A stretch of 46,046 nt of DNA, taken from a virus. Below the pieces are notes generated by a model that was given only the letters and a program-made list of their open reading frames with translations, did not search any database and was not told where the DNA came from. Positions 1-18,718 of the stretch are shown piece after piece (within the stretch, counting starts at the first letter, position 1; every line of letters starts with the position of its first letter). Where the stretch lies: IMG/VR virus record IMGVR_UViG_3300027734_000116, positions 1-46,046 of that record. The stretch is one strand, 5' to 3'. A program made the translations under genes and the position numbers.

Positions 1-1701
1 AAATATTGCTGCACTTGTTGTTCCAACATTTGTAACAGTTGCAGGAGAACCTGAAGCACCTGTAACTGTTGTTCCAACAGAAATTGTAGCAGCTTGACCT
101 GCTCCCCCTGGTGATCCAGAAGTACCAGCAGAGCCTGACGTACCAGAAGATCCAACAGGACCTCCAGCACCAGATGTTCCTGATGATCCTGAAGTTCCTG
201 TTGCACCACTTGTAGCAGAAGTACCTGCACTTCCACCAAGTCCACTAGAACCAGACGAACCAGAAGTTCCTGCTGTTCCAGTTAATCCACTTGTTCCATT
301 ACTTCCACTAATTCCAGAACTACCTGAAATTCCTGAAGATCCTGATGTTCCTGTTGCACCACTAGATGCAGAGGTACCAGCACTACCACTAGTTCCAGAA
401 GAACCTGATGAACCACTAGAACCAGAAGAACCAGAAGTTCCTGATGTACCTATTGTTCCATCAACTCCAGAACTACCTGAAGATCCTGCTGTTCCATCAA
501 TACCACTAGTACCATTAATGCCAGAAGTTCCTGCACTACCACTAGAACCAGAAGAACCTGATGTTCCAGATAAACCACTAGATCCTGATGTTCCTGCTGT
601 ACCATCTCCTCCAGCAGCACCTGTTAAGTTAACTATCCAAGATGAGAATGTTCCTGATCCTAAAACAGATGTAACATTAACAACTAAACCTCCTCCAACA
701 CTATCGTAAAAAGTAACAGTACCAACCATAAAGTTGGAGCTGTTGTATACAATTGATAATTCTTGACCTATAGTATATGCAAGTCCTGTTCCAACAGTTA
801 ATGATTGTGATATTATACCAATAGTTAATCCAGTAGTTGAACTTGTTTTATATCTATCTCCTGAAAGTCCTGAAGAACCTGATGTACCATTTGATCCTGT
901 TACACCAGATGTACCAGCTATACCACTTGTACCAGATGTACCATGAGTTCCATTAATACCTGTTGTTCCACTAGTTCCATTTGTTCCACTAGTGCCATTG
1001 ATTCCAGAAGTTCCATTGGTTCCTGAACTAGCAGATGTACCACTAGTTCCAGTGGTTCCATTTGTACCATTAAGACCAGTAGTACCACTTGATCCATTTT
1101 CTCCTGACGTACCAGATGAGCCTGATGTACCAGATATTCCTGAAGTTCCAGTAGTTCCTGATGTACCAATAGTTCCTGATTGTCCAGAAGTGCCACTAGT
1201 TCCAGTAGTTCCTGAAGTTCCACCTGAACCACTAGTACCATTTGTTCCATTCATTCCTGCTGTACCAGCTGATCCTGATGTTCCAGATGCTCCTGAAGAA
1301 CCACTTGATCCAGACGAGCCAGATGTTCCATTTGCGCCAGTAGTACCACTTGTACCAGACTCTCCTTGAGAGCCAGTTGATCCTGATATTCCAGAACTTC
1401 CTGAAGTACCACCAGATCCATTTTGACCAGATGTTCCAGACGTGCCACTTAACTCTTGAATATTTCCAATTGCTTCATCTATCTGCTCAATAGCAGTTGT
1501 TAAATCTGTAAGAGTTTGTATTCCTGTATTTGGAAGATTAGGCCCTACGTAAGTTACATCATTAGAGCTAATTCCACAATTTGAATTGGTGTTACAGCCA
1601 CATTGACCACTGCAAGAGATTACACCACAACACCCACAACCTTGTTGTGAGGTAGTGTATATCACTTCATTGTAACATGGCATTCCTGGTAAACAAGACA
1701 T
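1..1701 (-). CDS. Collagen-like fibre protein, C-terminus cut by window edge
   Basis: The open frame runs 567 codons from an ATG at 1701 to the left edge with no stop. Residues 1-84 form a Cys-rich head (pattern CGCCG...CSGQCGC, about 11 Cys) followed by a short helical stretch. About 85-280 is a continuous Gly-X-Y collagen-like block dominated by GTSG/GSSG triplets. About 280-361 is a non-collagen beta-rich domain (starts [10 protein letters not shown]). A second Gly-X-Y block follows, then near the edge a segment with [20 protein letters not shown], a pattern common in phage tail-fibre repeats. Its place at the end of the virion operon suggests a trimeric tail or capsid fibre used in host or mucus adhesion; that role is inferred. 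Opposite-strand Pro/Val-rich frames here are shadows of the repeats. Confidence 0.85.
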
Positions 1702-4611: not shown

Positions 4612-5576
4612 ACTGTTGCTAATTTTTTACCTTTTAACTTTTGCTCTAAGATTAGTAAATCATCTTGATGATCTTCATCTGCAAGGTATTTAACTAATTC
4701 TTCTTCATCAATTGCCATTTCTAGTTCTCCCATATAAACCTTACCATTAGGTTTTACACGATAAATAGAATGTGTAATTGCTTGTTTAACTAAATCTTTA
4801 ATTGCAAGCAATTGGTCTTTCATATCTGCGAATCTATTGAAGACTTCAATTGGAGATAAACCTTGGTATTTTCCCTCTTTGAATTCAGTTTGTTTTAACA
4901 AGTTATCCACTTGGTTATAAACAACTTCTTCTTTAGTTTCTTCTGTTACAGGTAAGCCTAACATTCTTGCTACTTTCTTTTTCTTATCAGGAGACATAGA
5001 ATCAAACTTGACAATTGCCTTGTTGATTACTTGCTTCTTCTTGTAAAGAACTGCATTTTCAATCTCATCATCTACAACATAGAATTGTGTATCTGCTGGA
5101 TATTCTCCACGCTCCCAAGCTTGATATGAACTAGCAATAGTTGGATGAACTCTCAACCATGCAAATGCTAACTCTTGCATTGGATTAGTGAAATCAAAAT
5201 AGTTATCACCATCTAATAACTTTACAGCTTGTACGTGCATCATATCATCAATGCCTTGAGATAATCCATAGTTCCAAAACTTAGAACGAGGACCAAGATC
5301 AACATCACCTAGTGCATACTCTAAACGTTTGCGTAACTCTGTAACACGATCTATTTCTAGTTCGCGTTCTGTAGGATCAGCGATACGTCTGATATATGCA
5401 GCATCAGGATTCAATCCTGTACGATACTGACCATCCATTTCCTTGTAAGGATATTTAAAAACACCTGTACCTGGAACTCGTGTCAAACCTTCACGTGAAA
5501 GTCCACCTTGCATTGTCTGCAATTGTGAGTTGTTGTAATCTTTCTTAATAGTAGAAATTTTGCCTGTCTTACCCAT
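4608..5576 (-). CDS. Virion-associated protein downstream of the capsid gene (322 aa)
   Basis: The N-terminus is basic and disordered-looking (MGKTGKISTIKKDYNNSQLQ). The middle and C-terminal parts are helical and charged, and the end is highly acidic then basic (DDLLILEQKLKGKKLATV). It follows the major capsid gene across a structured 176-base spacer and precedes the connector-like gene with a 4-base overlap. A head-associated or internal (cargo) protein is plausible. I do not recognise a named domain. Its leader shares a roughly 30-base A-rich motif with the leader of the 413-residue acidic gene. Confidence 0.6.
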   Translation of the reverse strand: MGKTGKISTIKKDYNNSQLQTMQGGLSREGLTRVPGTGVFKYPYKEMDGQYRTGLNPDAAYIRRIADPTERELEIDRVTELRKRLEYALGDVDLGPRSKFWNYGLSQGIDDMMHVQAVKLLDGDNYFDFTNPMQELAFAWLRVHPTIASSYQAWERGEYPADTQFYVVDDEIENAVLYKKKQVINKAIVKFDSMSPDKKKKVARMLGLPVTEETKEEVVYNQVDNLLKQTEFKEGKYQGLSPIEVFNRFADMKDQLLAIKDLVKQAITHSIYRVKPNGKVYMGELEMAIDEEELVKYLADEDHQDDLLILEQKLKGKKLATV

Positions 5577-5752
5577 ATGTAGTTTAATTTTTAATTGGTT
5601 TTTAGCAGAGTGCTATCCATCGAAGGAATAGCGACCAGGGACACCCCAATCCAAGCACTCTGTATCAAGAACACTCTCCCCCATAGGAGGGAGGAGAGAG
5701 GGAGAGGTTCTTGTGCTTATCGATTGATAAGCGTGGGACAAAGTCCCATGTA
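5577..5752 (-). other. Highly structured spacer after the capsid gene: four hairpins and a shared leader
   Basis: There are four dyads in 143 bases. TGGGAC/GTCCCA lies at 5734-5748. GCTTATC-GATT-GATAAGC is at 5715-5732. CAAGAAC-ctctccc pairs with gggagag-GTTCTTG at 5666-5713, a 14-bp stem with one bulge. CAGAGTGCT/AGCACTCTG is at 5606-5662 with alternative inner pairing. The spacer is far more GC-rich than its surroundings. The final 28 bases before the next start carry the leader motif AAAAACCAATT...AAACTAC. It could be a 3' mRNA stabiliser, a processing site, a partial terminator or a small RNA. Confidence 0.65.
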
Positions 5753-7306
5753 TTAGAATTGAGGGATTTCTTCGATCAAGACTGTGCGAGACAAGTCTTC
5801 AATGAACACATCACAACGATCCTTCATCCAGATTTCGTATCCTGGGAATTTGTTCGCAGAACTCATACCTTGAGACTTAGCAAAGCCTAAGTGGTGACGA
5901 GTACCATCGATATAACCCCAAGTCATAGAAGGTGCACCCTTCATACGAACCTCACGAATGTTATTAACCATTGAACCATCAGACATTGGAGATACGTCAA
6001 ACACCATAAATACTGGAGTTGATTTCTTGTTTTGTCCAAATTCTAAGTTAGTTTGAGGAAGATCTAATTCTTTTAAGTGAATTAACTCAACACGACCAGT
6101 CTCACGAGTAACCATTGCATCGAATGCAAAGTTGTAAGTGATGTGTTGTCCTTCTCCTTGCATGTAACGATTACCTGAATCAGCCATGAAAGTTAAACCT
6201 GAATTCAAAGCATCAGTCTTAAGTGCTTGTTGGAACACGTCGAAGCCAGCTTCGTTAGTGTACATTTTAACACGACGATCCTTAACATCCACACGACGAT
6301 AGAATAAATCACCAAACACTGAACGAATCAAGTTAGCAGTGAATTCTCCACGATTGTATTGAACCAAGTTACCATTGTTACGCATACGATGGTATACACC
6401 AGCAGAAGTACGCTTCAATTCTTGCTTAGAACCATTAGACTTAACAGTACCTGGACGAGCCCAGATCATACGCTTAACCTTTAATTCTAACATAGACTTA
6501 CGCATCCAGAACTCAACGAATGGCTCCCACTTAACATCATTACGAGTTAAAGGAAGTTGGTTACGACGTTGAGGAGCATATACTAAGATATCTAAAGCTG
6601 AACCATCAGCATTAACTAACATCTTGTCATCAGCCCATTCAGTAATTTTGTGCTCATATCCATATGCAGAACTCAATGATTCGAACATAGTGATTTGCTC
6701 ACCTAAACGTGGCAATCCTAAAAGGTCTTGATCAAATTCACCAATAGCAGCATCAACTAATTCAAGCTCTAAACCAATCTGTAAGAATACAGGTGATACG
6801 AAGTCAACTTGAGGATTGTCAGTTACTAATGTGAAAGTGTATAAATAACCCATGTTCCATGGTTGAGGATCTTTGATCGCATACCAACGAGGACCATACT
6901 GACGAGTACCTACAGAAACGATTGCGTTCTTAGAGAATTCGTTAGTGTCAATAATCACTTGAAATTCTTGACCATCGATACCTGGCTTATCCAACTCTAA
7001 AGTGGAATCAGGAATGTCGATGATTTTAGGGAATTTGTAAGGAACTTGTACTTGCCACTTCCAAGCATCACTATTGTTGTCGATGTAGTAAGGAGTTGAC
7101 TTGTTGATCATGTCCAAGAAGTCATTGCTGTACAACGAACTCTGAGTGTACAAACTGATGATCTTCTTGTCATAGTCTGCTGGCTCAGTTGAGTGAAAGC
7201 TTTCCAAGTGGTTTGAATCTGTTAGTTTACCTACTGCACGTTTGTCCATAGACGCTACACGAGCATAAGTAAAGCCAGTTAAACCAGGGATAGTTTGAAT
7301 TGCCAT
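5753..7306 (-). CDS. Major capsid protein
   Basis: This 517-residue protein lies just downstream of the portal and an acidic scaffold-like gene, the standard place for the capsid subunit. The sequence, from MAIQTIPGLTGFTYARVASM onward, has the length and general look I associate with crAss-like major capsid proteins. It probably has the HK97 fold, which cannot be verified by eye. Codons are among the most C-ending in the left half, fitting high expression. It is followed by a hairpin-rich spacer that may protect or process its mRNA. The start at 7306 has an A-rich AACAAAAAATGG context. Confidence 0.75.
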   Translation of the reverse strand: MAIQTIPGLTGFTYARVASMDKRAVGKLTDSNHLESFHSTEPADYDKKIISLYTQSSLYSNDFLDMINKSTPYYIDNNSDAWKWQVQVPYKFPKIIDIPDSTLELDKPGIDGQEFQVIIDTNEFSKNAIVSVGTRQYGPRWYAIKDPQPWNMGYLYTFTLVTDNPQVDFVSPVFLQIGLELELVDAAIGEFDQDLLGLPRLGEQITMFESLSSAYGYEHKITEWADDKMLVNADGSALDILVYAPQRRNQLPLTRNDVKWEPFVEFWMRKSMLELKVKRMIWARPGTVKSNGSKQELKRTSAGVYHRMRNNGNLVQYNRGEFTANLIRSVFGDLFYRRVDVKDRRVKMYTNEAGFDVFQQALKTDALNSGLTFMADSGNRYMQGEGQHITYNFAFDAMVTRETGRVELIHLKELDLPQTNLEFGQNKKSTPVFMVFDVSPMSDGSMVNNIREVRMKGAPSMTWGYIDGTRHHLGFAKSQGMSSANKFPGYEIWMKDRCDVFIEDLSRTVLIEEIPQF

Positions 7307-15416: not shown

Positions 15417-15664
15417 GATGTTTCTGTTTACGTGAAAGGAAGCCCCCCCCTTTCCCCCCCAAAGATGAGGAAACTTTTTTGAAATAAAAAATTTGTCAAT
15501 AGGAAATTTTTCATTGGCCCCTCCCCCAAAATTTTTTATAGCCCCCATACCCCTTGTGTCTATGGGAGGGGAGTCCTCATCATATTACAACCCCCAAGGA
15601 AATTAGTGGGATGACGTTATCCCCCTGTCATCATCTAGGCAGATGTTAAATAGCCATAATTATA
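15417..15664. other. Divergence-point spacer with C/G-run cluster
   Basis: No convincing gene is seen. On the plus strand there are C-runs at 15443-15450 (8), 15454-15460 (7), 15518-15521, 15523-15527, 15542-15546, 15550-15553, 15591-15595 and 15621-15625, in an otherwise AT-rich genome. There are also short dyads: CCCATA/TATGGG at 15544-15565 or so, GATGAC/GTCATC around 15610-15632, and CATCT-AGGC-AGATG just after. The minus strand could form G-quadruplexes. This is where leftward and rightward transcription part, so it may be an origin, a packaging site or a promoter region. No TANNTTTG box is seen ahead of the first rightward gene. Confidence 0.6.
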
Positions 15665-17757: not shown

Positions 17758-18159
17758 ATGACAAGTACAACTTTAATGACAGCAGTAATTAACAATGGTC
17801 AGTTCTCAGTAAATGGTAACTTCAGTGGCTACACAGCTACAGGAGTGAGAGTTCACATCTACGCACGTCAGATGTCAGCAATAGGCTGGGAAGCAGACGA
17901 TGATGTGAAATATCCATTCTATGCATTAGCAAAGGAGAAGGAGATCACACCATTCGAAGCAGATGGTAAGACACTATCTGAGACCAAGTCTATCAGACTA
18001 ACTGCTACAGCAGTGTTTACCACTGTCGATGCACTAGCAGCTGCTAAGGGCGAAGTGGTGTTAGTCGAAGCTAAGGTTAACAGCATCATAGCCAAGCAGG
18101 CTGTGGCAGCTGGACTAAGCGAAGACACCATGAAAGACTTGCTATCAGTAGCAGTCTAA
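17758..18159 (+). CDS. Paralogous family member 2 (133 aa), possible abundant early protein
   Basis: This 133-residue protein is about 73% identical (by hand count, ungapped over 124 residues) to the one at 18332. The core is GQFSVNGNFSGYTATGVRVH, then KYPFYALAKEKEI, then RLTATAVF, with a helical end (IIAKQAVAAGLSE...LLSVAV). The repeated Gly-strand pattern could be an OB-like barrel; this is untested. Codons are unusually C-ending (AAC, TTC, TAC, ATC) for this region, fitting high expression. It is monocistronic, with its own terminator. The start could also be 17776, which aligns better with the paralog. Confidence 0.75.
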   Translation: MTSTTLMTAVINNGQFSVNGNFSGYTATGVRVHIYARQMSAIGWEADDDVKYPFYALAKEKEITPFEADGKTLSETKSIRLTATAVFTTVDALAAAKGEVVLVEAKVNSIIAKQAVAAGLSEDTMKDLLSVAV

Positions 18160-18331: not shown

Positions 18332-18718
18332 ATGAAAAATTATGTAATCAACAATGGAGGATTCACTGCCAATGGTAACTTTAGTGGTTATACAGCAATG
18401 GGTGAAAGAGTACACATTTATGCTCGTCAAATGGCTTCTAATAATTGGGAAGCTAATGAAGACGTTAAGTATCCTTTTTATTGTCTAGCTGTAGAAAAGG
18501 AGATTGAGCCTTTTGGTGCTGATGGTAAAACTCCTACAGGTGAGAAGGTGAAGCGTTTAACTGCTACATCTGTATTCCTAACTGTAGATGCTTTGGCTGA
18601 AGCTAAAGGTGCTACTGTATTGGTAGAAGCTAGAGTTAATAACATCATAGCTAAGGAAGCTGTCGCTGCTGGTTTAAGTGAAGCATCTATTGCTGATCTA
18701 TTATCTGTAGCTGTTTAA
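18332..18718 (+). CDS. Paralogous family member 3 (128 aa)
   Basis: The product is 128 residues, about 73% identical to member 2 but written with mostly T-ending synonymous codons (TTT, TAT, ATT, GCT) where member 2 uses C-ending ones. Conserved parts: GNFSGYTA, RVHIYARQM, KYPFY, ADGKT, RLTAT, TVDALA, IIAKxAVAAGLSE and DLLSVAV. It has its own leader (about 130 bases) and terminator. The near-identical C-terminal helix suggests a conserved partner. No function is known to me; a DNA- or RNA-binding barrel is one possibility. Confidence 0.75.
   Translation: MKNYVINNGGFTANGNFSGYTAMGERVHIYARQMASNNWEANEDVKYPFYCLAVEKEIEPFGADGKTPTGEKVKRLTATSVFLTVDALAEAKGATVLVEARVNNIIAKEAVAAGLSEASIADLLSVAV

Follow-up and report, generated by a model that had tools for sequence, protein, structure and literature searches.

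On comparison of the sequences, the RNA of the spacer behind the major capsid protein (MCP) gene of a crAss-like phage contains a three-way junction that has retained its shape in a large group of related phages, changes on one side of a pair being matched on the other. The RNA folds, its fold is under selection as coding-strand RNA, and the element is limited to the MCP boundary. The spacer lies in IMG/VR virus record IMGVR_UViG_3300027734_000116, the whole of which (46,046 nucleotides) was analysed and is referred to below as the window. The original prediction, that a GC-rich spacer with four hairpins follows the capsid gene, is confirmed as an observation, while its interpretation as a stabilising 3′ end, a processing site or an independent small RNA is partly supported and incomplete. 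As to function, we see an even chance that the spacer is a conserved gene-boundary RNA module of the late operon of crAss-like phages, in which a leaky terminator-type hairpin and the stable junction would keep capsid mRNA above the downstream mRNAs.

The spacer and its upstream hairpins

The whole intercistronic spacer is 176 nt long (5577..5752, minus strand) and separates the MCP stop from the ATG of the next gene, P0002; 437 homologous spacers are present in relatives. Its RNA reads from 5752 down to 5577 on the minus strand, which is the transcribed and coding strand, with the MCP stop at 5753 and the P0002 ATG at 5576. The upstream gene (5753..7306, minus) encodes a Crassvirales MCP (Pfam Crass_capsid, 6.5e-26; PHROG 11589, major head protein, 5e-32). 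P0002 (4608..5576, minus), a member of the virion gene block, matches PHROG 16383, a family of unknown function (4e-9). The portal and terminase genes near the MCP gene have matches to phage families, those of the terminase search being Cellulophaga, Flavobacterium, Bacteroides and human-gut crAss-like phages.

As predicted, the spacer begins right after the MCP stop and is GC-rich (51.7% versus 35.3% for the window). Folded on the transcribed strand it reaches −70.4 kcal/mol (z = −5.50; none of 200 dinucleotide shuffles as good), and the opposite strand gives z = −4.77 (0/200 shuffles as good). When folding energy was scanned over the window in sliding 140-nt frames, two places on the minus strand stood out as most stable: the spacer and 7–286, which codes for a collagen-like repeat. 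This repeat belongs to a minus-strand gene in the first 1,000 nucleotides of the window (1–1000), the product of which is a collagen-like Gly-Thr-Ser-Gly-Ser-Ser repeat protein that runs off the window end, and the very stable mRNA folding near the window start is a by-product of these repeats. Elsewhere in the window, the neighbouring genes at 17758–18159 and 18332–18718 look like diverged copies of one another (NGNFSGYTA...RVHIYARQM in both) and have clearly different base compositions, with a strong terminator-like hairpin (GGGAGGATTACGCTCCCTTCTTTTT) following the gene at 17758–18159. The segment at 15430–15620 is non-coding, lies between divergent gene blocks and contains several C runs and a C-rich/G-rich dyad.

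All four dyads predicted within 5606–5748 are present there in the minus-strand fold, the fourth of which (5606–5662) is a three-way junction and not a hairpin. The junction, its conserved hexaloop and the terminator-like character of the long hairpin upstream of it had not been seen in the original prediction. Directly behind the MCP stop, the fold places the short hairpin A1 (TGGGAC/GTCCCA; 5734..5748, minus), a variable position that is occupied in relatives by other sequences and other hairpins. It is followed by the short hairpin A2 (GCTTATC/GATAAGC; 5715..5732, minus), also from the fold, which is found only in close relatives, with an identical or similar hairpin in L001, L003 and L006.

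The next element, hairpin B (5666..5713, minus), is long and bulged (about 15 bp), with a C-rich loop and a terminator-like inner stem that was recovered both by folding and by a terminator scan (5698–5674). The hairpin occurs in 85 relatives at lengths of 9–19 bp (mostly 13–17), with several different outer stems, each of which is mutually pairing; these stems were compared one by one, as a MAFFT alignment had yielded only a poor automatic consensus fold for hairpin B. In the window, nine pairs of the inner stem are followed by TGTTCTTGAT (5 T in 8), and the scan calls this arrangement terminator-like, though the tract can pair upstream. The earlier statement that no T-run follows the hairpins holds in part only: TGTTCTTG (5 T in 8) stands behind the inner stem, even if these bases are able to pair with the upstream A-rich arm. 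Across the relatives, the terminator scan found a terminator-like site in 50 of 200 spacers versus 9 of 400 shuffles. The U-rich tail behind hairpin B is better in some relatives; in most close relatives it is poor or paired, so that termination may be weak or absent. Taken together with the hairpins of other Crassvirales (see below), these comparisons make it plausible that hairpin B, which resembles a degraded terminator, is a weakened one and that the junction was added in this phage group.

The spacer ends in the A-rich leader of P0002 (CUAAAAACCAAUU...AACUACAU-AUG; 5577..5605, minus), which is kept in nearly all relatives, where it ends in ACUACAU before the P0002 ATG, and which is repeated before inserted HNH-like genes.

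The three-way junction and its conservation

A first protein search of IMG/VR yielded at least 80 close relatives, and further searches raised the set to 437 spacers, 200 of them distinct, from phages with an MCP 87–100% identical to that of the window. The spacers of relatives are usually 120–200 nt long and share a common plan, in the order variable short hairpins, hairpin B with its C-rich loop, a compact element of ~60 nt and the A-rich leader. In most relatives, three stems (P1, P2 and P3) meet in a three-way junction within the compact element.

In the window, the junction RNA (5606..5662, minus; covariance models R1 and R2) is closed by P1, in which 5656–5662 pair with 5606–5612. This outer stem, CAGAGUG(C)/(G)CACUCUG, encloses a variable arm, P2, and P3, which carries the hexaloop UUCGAU (5619..5624, minus). 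Column counts over 94 sequences and loop variants over 150 spacers give the hexaloop the consensus UUYRNU: the first U is present in 93/94 sequences, the second U, the pyrimidine and the purine in 94/94 and the last U in 89/94. Behind P1, neither the C nor the second A varies in the same 94 sequences.

The original prediction had named covariation in relatives among its checks, and the base pairs proved strongly conserved through compensatory changes, which rules out an absence of base-pair conservation. The first alignment (plain MAFFT, 46 sequences, RNAalifold) gave 16 pairs, 14 with compensatory double changes, and the covariance-model alignment of 94 distinct sequences likewise has double compensatory changes in 14/16 pairs; the latter alignment is fitted to the model and kinship inflates its counts, against which the slid-partner controls and the MAFFT alignment guard in part. 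Over the 94 sequences, 93.9% of cells in the junction helices pair (98.3% in P1), and the covariation score of the junction is 0.618, compared with 0.188 for shuffles and 0.04–0.11 for the slid-partner controls. The inner extension of P2 covaries too. P3 has four covarying pairs; a fifth (columns 45–61) is without compensatory change and is unpaired in 35/79 cells. A simple descriptor was defined by a UUYR hexaloop, a loop stem with a minimum of 3 pairs and, 0–2 nt away, a closing stem with a minimum of 6; it fits 150 of 161 distinct spacers and 2 of 483 shuffled ones.

On the coding strand, G-U occupies 79 cells versus 31 for A-C, which indicates that the selected molecule is the RNA of that strand. 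The same bias argues against a DNA-level cruciform or a packaging signal, both of which were considered and set aside. In the window, GAUUGG of P2 could also form a pseudoknot with CCAAUU of the leader; this was dropped, as the P2 side is not kept by eye (e.g. in L004).

Of 20 phage records, comprising the window and 19 relatives, 19 have a single strong copy of the junction, located behind the MCP gene, and no further copy at significant score; the exception is the record of L078 (G013), which has none. Among fetched loci, 75 of 77 sources have one strong match, adjoining the MCP gene. Pattern matches with no MCP gene nearby have poor model scores, look like chance coding sequence and were not accepted as occurrences outside the phage group. 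In distant relatives (Leptolyngbya phage Lbo-JY46 and L225–L236), with an MCP about 25–29% identical, there was no significant model match to the junction. The window element has no Rfam match, searches of the local region and of the relatives returning only sub-threshold chance matches, and no Rfam ribozyme model scores at E≤10 in 5540–5800. The junction appears to be an RNA family absent from Rfam.

One spacer, L313, has an unrelated P1 (GGAGGGG/CCCCUCC) and retains the layout and the loop UUCGAU. This sequence (JACIXZ010000023.1) is a crAss-like phage contig in a Tissierellales metagenome-assembled genome, probably through a binning error.

Natural variants at the gene boundary

In about a dozen spacers (L009, L010, L028, L054, L068, L097, L258, L366 and others), small HNH-like genes, recognised by eye and without a Pfam match, stand behind the junction. 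Such insertions (L009, L010, L028, L054, L068, L097 and others) put about 330–500 nt between the junction and P0002. L102 and L312 instead have another kind of HNH-like gene, which overlaps the MCP stop and is located between the MCP gene and the hairpins. The module is whole in the insertion-bearing relatives, whichever neighbour, MCP or P0002, is displaced. The start of the HNH-like genes behind the junction (ACUACAU-AUGGG) repeats the start context of the displaced gene, which suggests that these genes were inserted at that gene's start. A natural deletion is found in L078, where the MCP is 93% identical, hairpin B and the leader are kept and the junction is absent; the junction has thus been dispensable at least once.

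Transfer RNA genes are found at the same boundary. L280 has a tRNA-Thr-like gene (1638–1710; 45.7 bits, with a decayed T-loop) in the place of the junction, while two different tRNA-Met genes stand directly behind the junction in L052 (7728–7801; 60.2 bits) and L396 (4206–4274; 42.7 bits). A near relative of L280, L324, looked like a further, decayed tRNA but has no Rfam tRNA match. There are only 0–3 tRNA-like matches per such phage record, and three tRNA cases at the MCP boundary among 200 spacers are suggestive, not decisive. The window itself has no tRNA by the ARAGORN/RF00005 test, with no RF00005 match in its record (G000).

Function of the boundary and comparison with known systems

For the gene-boundary module, the following sequence of events can be proposed. 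Hairpin B occupies the position of the terminator-like hairpin of several other Crassvirales, and a fraction of the transcripts probably halts or is slowed there. The junction, just downstream on the read-through RNA, would then form a very stable and specifically shaped block that may be recognised or cut there, and the capsid mRNA would gain a protected 3′ end and accumulate above the mRNAs of the downstream virion genes. We infer from the comparisons that termination is leaky, that the 3′ end is protected or cleaved and that capsid dosage is affected as a result. The original suggestion of a structural or processing element fits the comparative evidence, in that the element is always at the MCP boundary and at no other place, and terminator-like hairpins occupy this boundary in several other Crassvirales. 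A literature search found no transcript map of such a phage.

The junction could also be a processing site that mimics tRNA, in which P1 would stand for the acceptor stem and P3, capped by the UUYRNU loop, for the T-arm, and at which RNase P and/or RNase Z would cut the read-through RNA between MCP and P0002. P1 is 7 bp long, P3 abuts the 3′ strand of P1 at 0–2 nt, the conserved loop UUYRAU resembles a T-loop, the layout and UUCGAU are retained on the unrelated P1 of L313, and tRNAs occur in the junction's place (L280) or directly behind it (L052, L396). Known RNase P substrates include acceptor/T-arm minihelices and, from phages, M3 RNA, C4 RNA and an mRNA of T4 (PMC11143913). Compared with these tRNA and tRNA-like substrates (phi80 M3 RNA, C4 antisense RNA and T4 gene 32 mRNA; PMC11143913), the junction has in common a 7-bp stem, an adjoining arm with a T-loop-like loop and an origin in a phage transcript; unlike them, it is without a D-arm, CCA or an Rfam tRNA match and has a P3 of 4 bp and a loop of 6 nt. 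Against the T-loop consensus UUCRANN, the U, U, Y and R are nearly invariant, but the T-loop adenosine is present in only 80% (75/94 sequences), the loop has 6 nt instead of 7 and its closing pair is mostly C-G, not G-C. The geometry of 7 + 5 = 12 bp is not supported, because the fifth P3 pair fails covariation; a 12-bp RNase P ruler was considered and rejected for the same reason. A total of 12 bp is modal (85/150) but includes chance extension. Moreover, tRNA genes move between phage genes anyway. We consider processing at a tRNA-like site unlikely though credible. It is slightly less probable again that the element is a D-arm-less mimic that evolved at the capsid boundary of a large crAss-like phage group, or decayed there from a tRNA gene, and would recruit host tRNA-processing enzymes to separate the capsid mRNA from the late operon; if true, such a mimic at the capsid boundary would be tRNA punctuation in a phage.

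The junction stands 20–30 nt upstream of the P0002 start, a proximity that allows for a 5′-UTR role in translational control of P0002. A protein- or ligand-binding element in this 5′ UTR, for example one that provides translational feedback by a virion protein reading the hexaloop, would account for the contrast between a stem that varies freely and a loop whose bases, like those flanking it, do not, which is typical of a binding site, and for the position just upstream of the P0002 leader; in L102 and L312, furthermore, the HNH-like gene parts the junction from MCP and not from P0002. The insertions in L009, L010, L028, L054, L068, L097 and others, however, part it from P0002, and the junction does not overlap the start region, which makes this role quite unlikely. 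A simple intrinsic terminator or 3′-stabiliser of stacked hairpins, in which the shape of the junction would be incidental, agrees with the very stable hairpins directly behind the stop codon, the terminator-like inner stem and the terminator-like hairpins at the equivalent place in other Crassvirales. Such a structure leaves unexplained why the hexaloop hardly varies, why the C and A following P1 never do and why the three-way layout stays constant over widely varied stems, and we regard it as decidedly improbable. The independent small RNA of the original prediction, released from the MCP 3′ UTR and acting in trans, found no supporting evidence and is most improbable: the fold is compact, stable and conserved in a 3′ UTR, but there is no promoter-like site in 5400–5900, what is conserved is a structure and not an extended single-stranded seed, and nothing points to a target.

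The gene-boundary module can be set beside several known arrangements. Stabilising hairpins of the REP/BIME type lie between cistrons and bring about differential expression of neighbouring genes via a stable structure between them. They are repeated in the genome, whereas the junction is present as one copy per genome and has a specific three-way fold. The pRNA of Phi29 is a phage RNA with a three-way junction; only this shape class is held in common, as sequence, layout, place and phage group differ and the window element has no Rfam match.

Phages of the Crassvirales are highly abundant, and we know of no clear account of how a single operon lets them produce capsid protein in large excess over the other virion proteins. 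With a conserved, well-defined RNA present once per genome exactly at the capsid boundary, and with natural variants (L078, L280 and the HNH-like insertions), this question of capsid dosage becomes directly testable. The closest comparison is within the order. A terminator-like hairpin lies directly behind the MCP gene in phi17:2, cr10_1, cr272_1, crAss001 and DAC15, of which only cr272_1 does not show a clear U-tract, and the distant relatives L228, L229, L231 and L232 have one hairpin with a U-rich tail in this place; Carjivirus communis and cr8_1 have a very short, unstructured spacer there. The window resembles crAss001, DAC15, phi17:2, cr10_1 and cr272_1 in having a stable hairpin directly behind the capsid gene within a similar gene order. 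By contrast, where those phages have a single hairpin, the hairpin of the window is bulged, its U-tract is poor and a separate conserved three-way junction follows.
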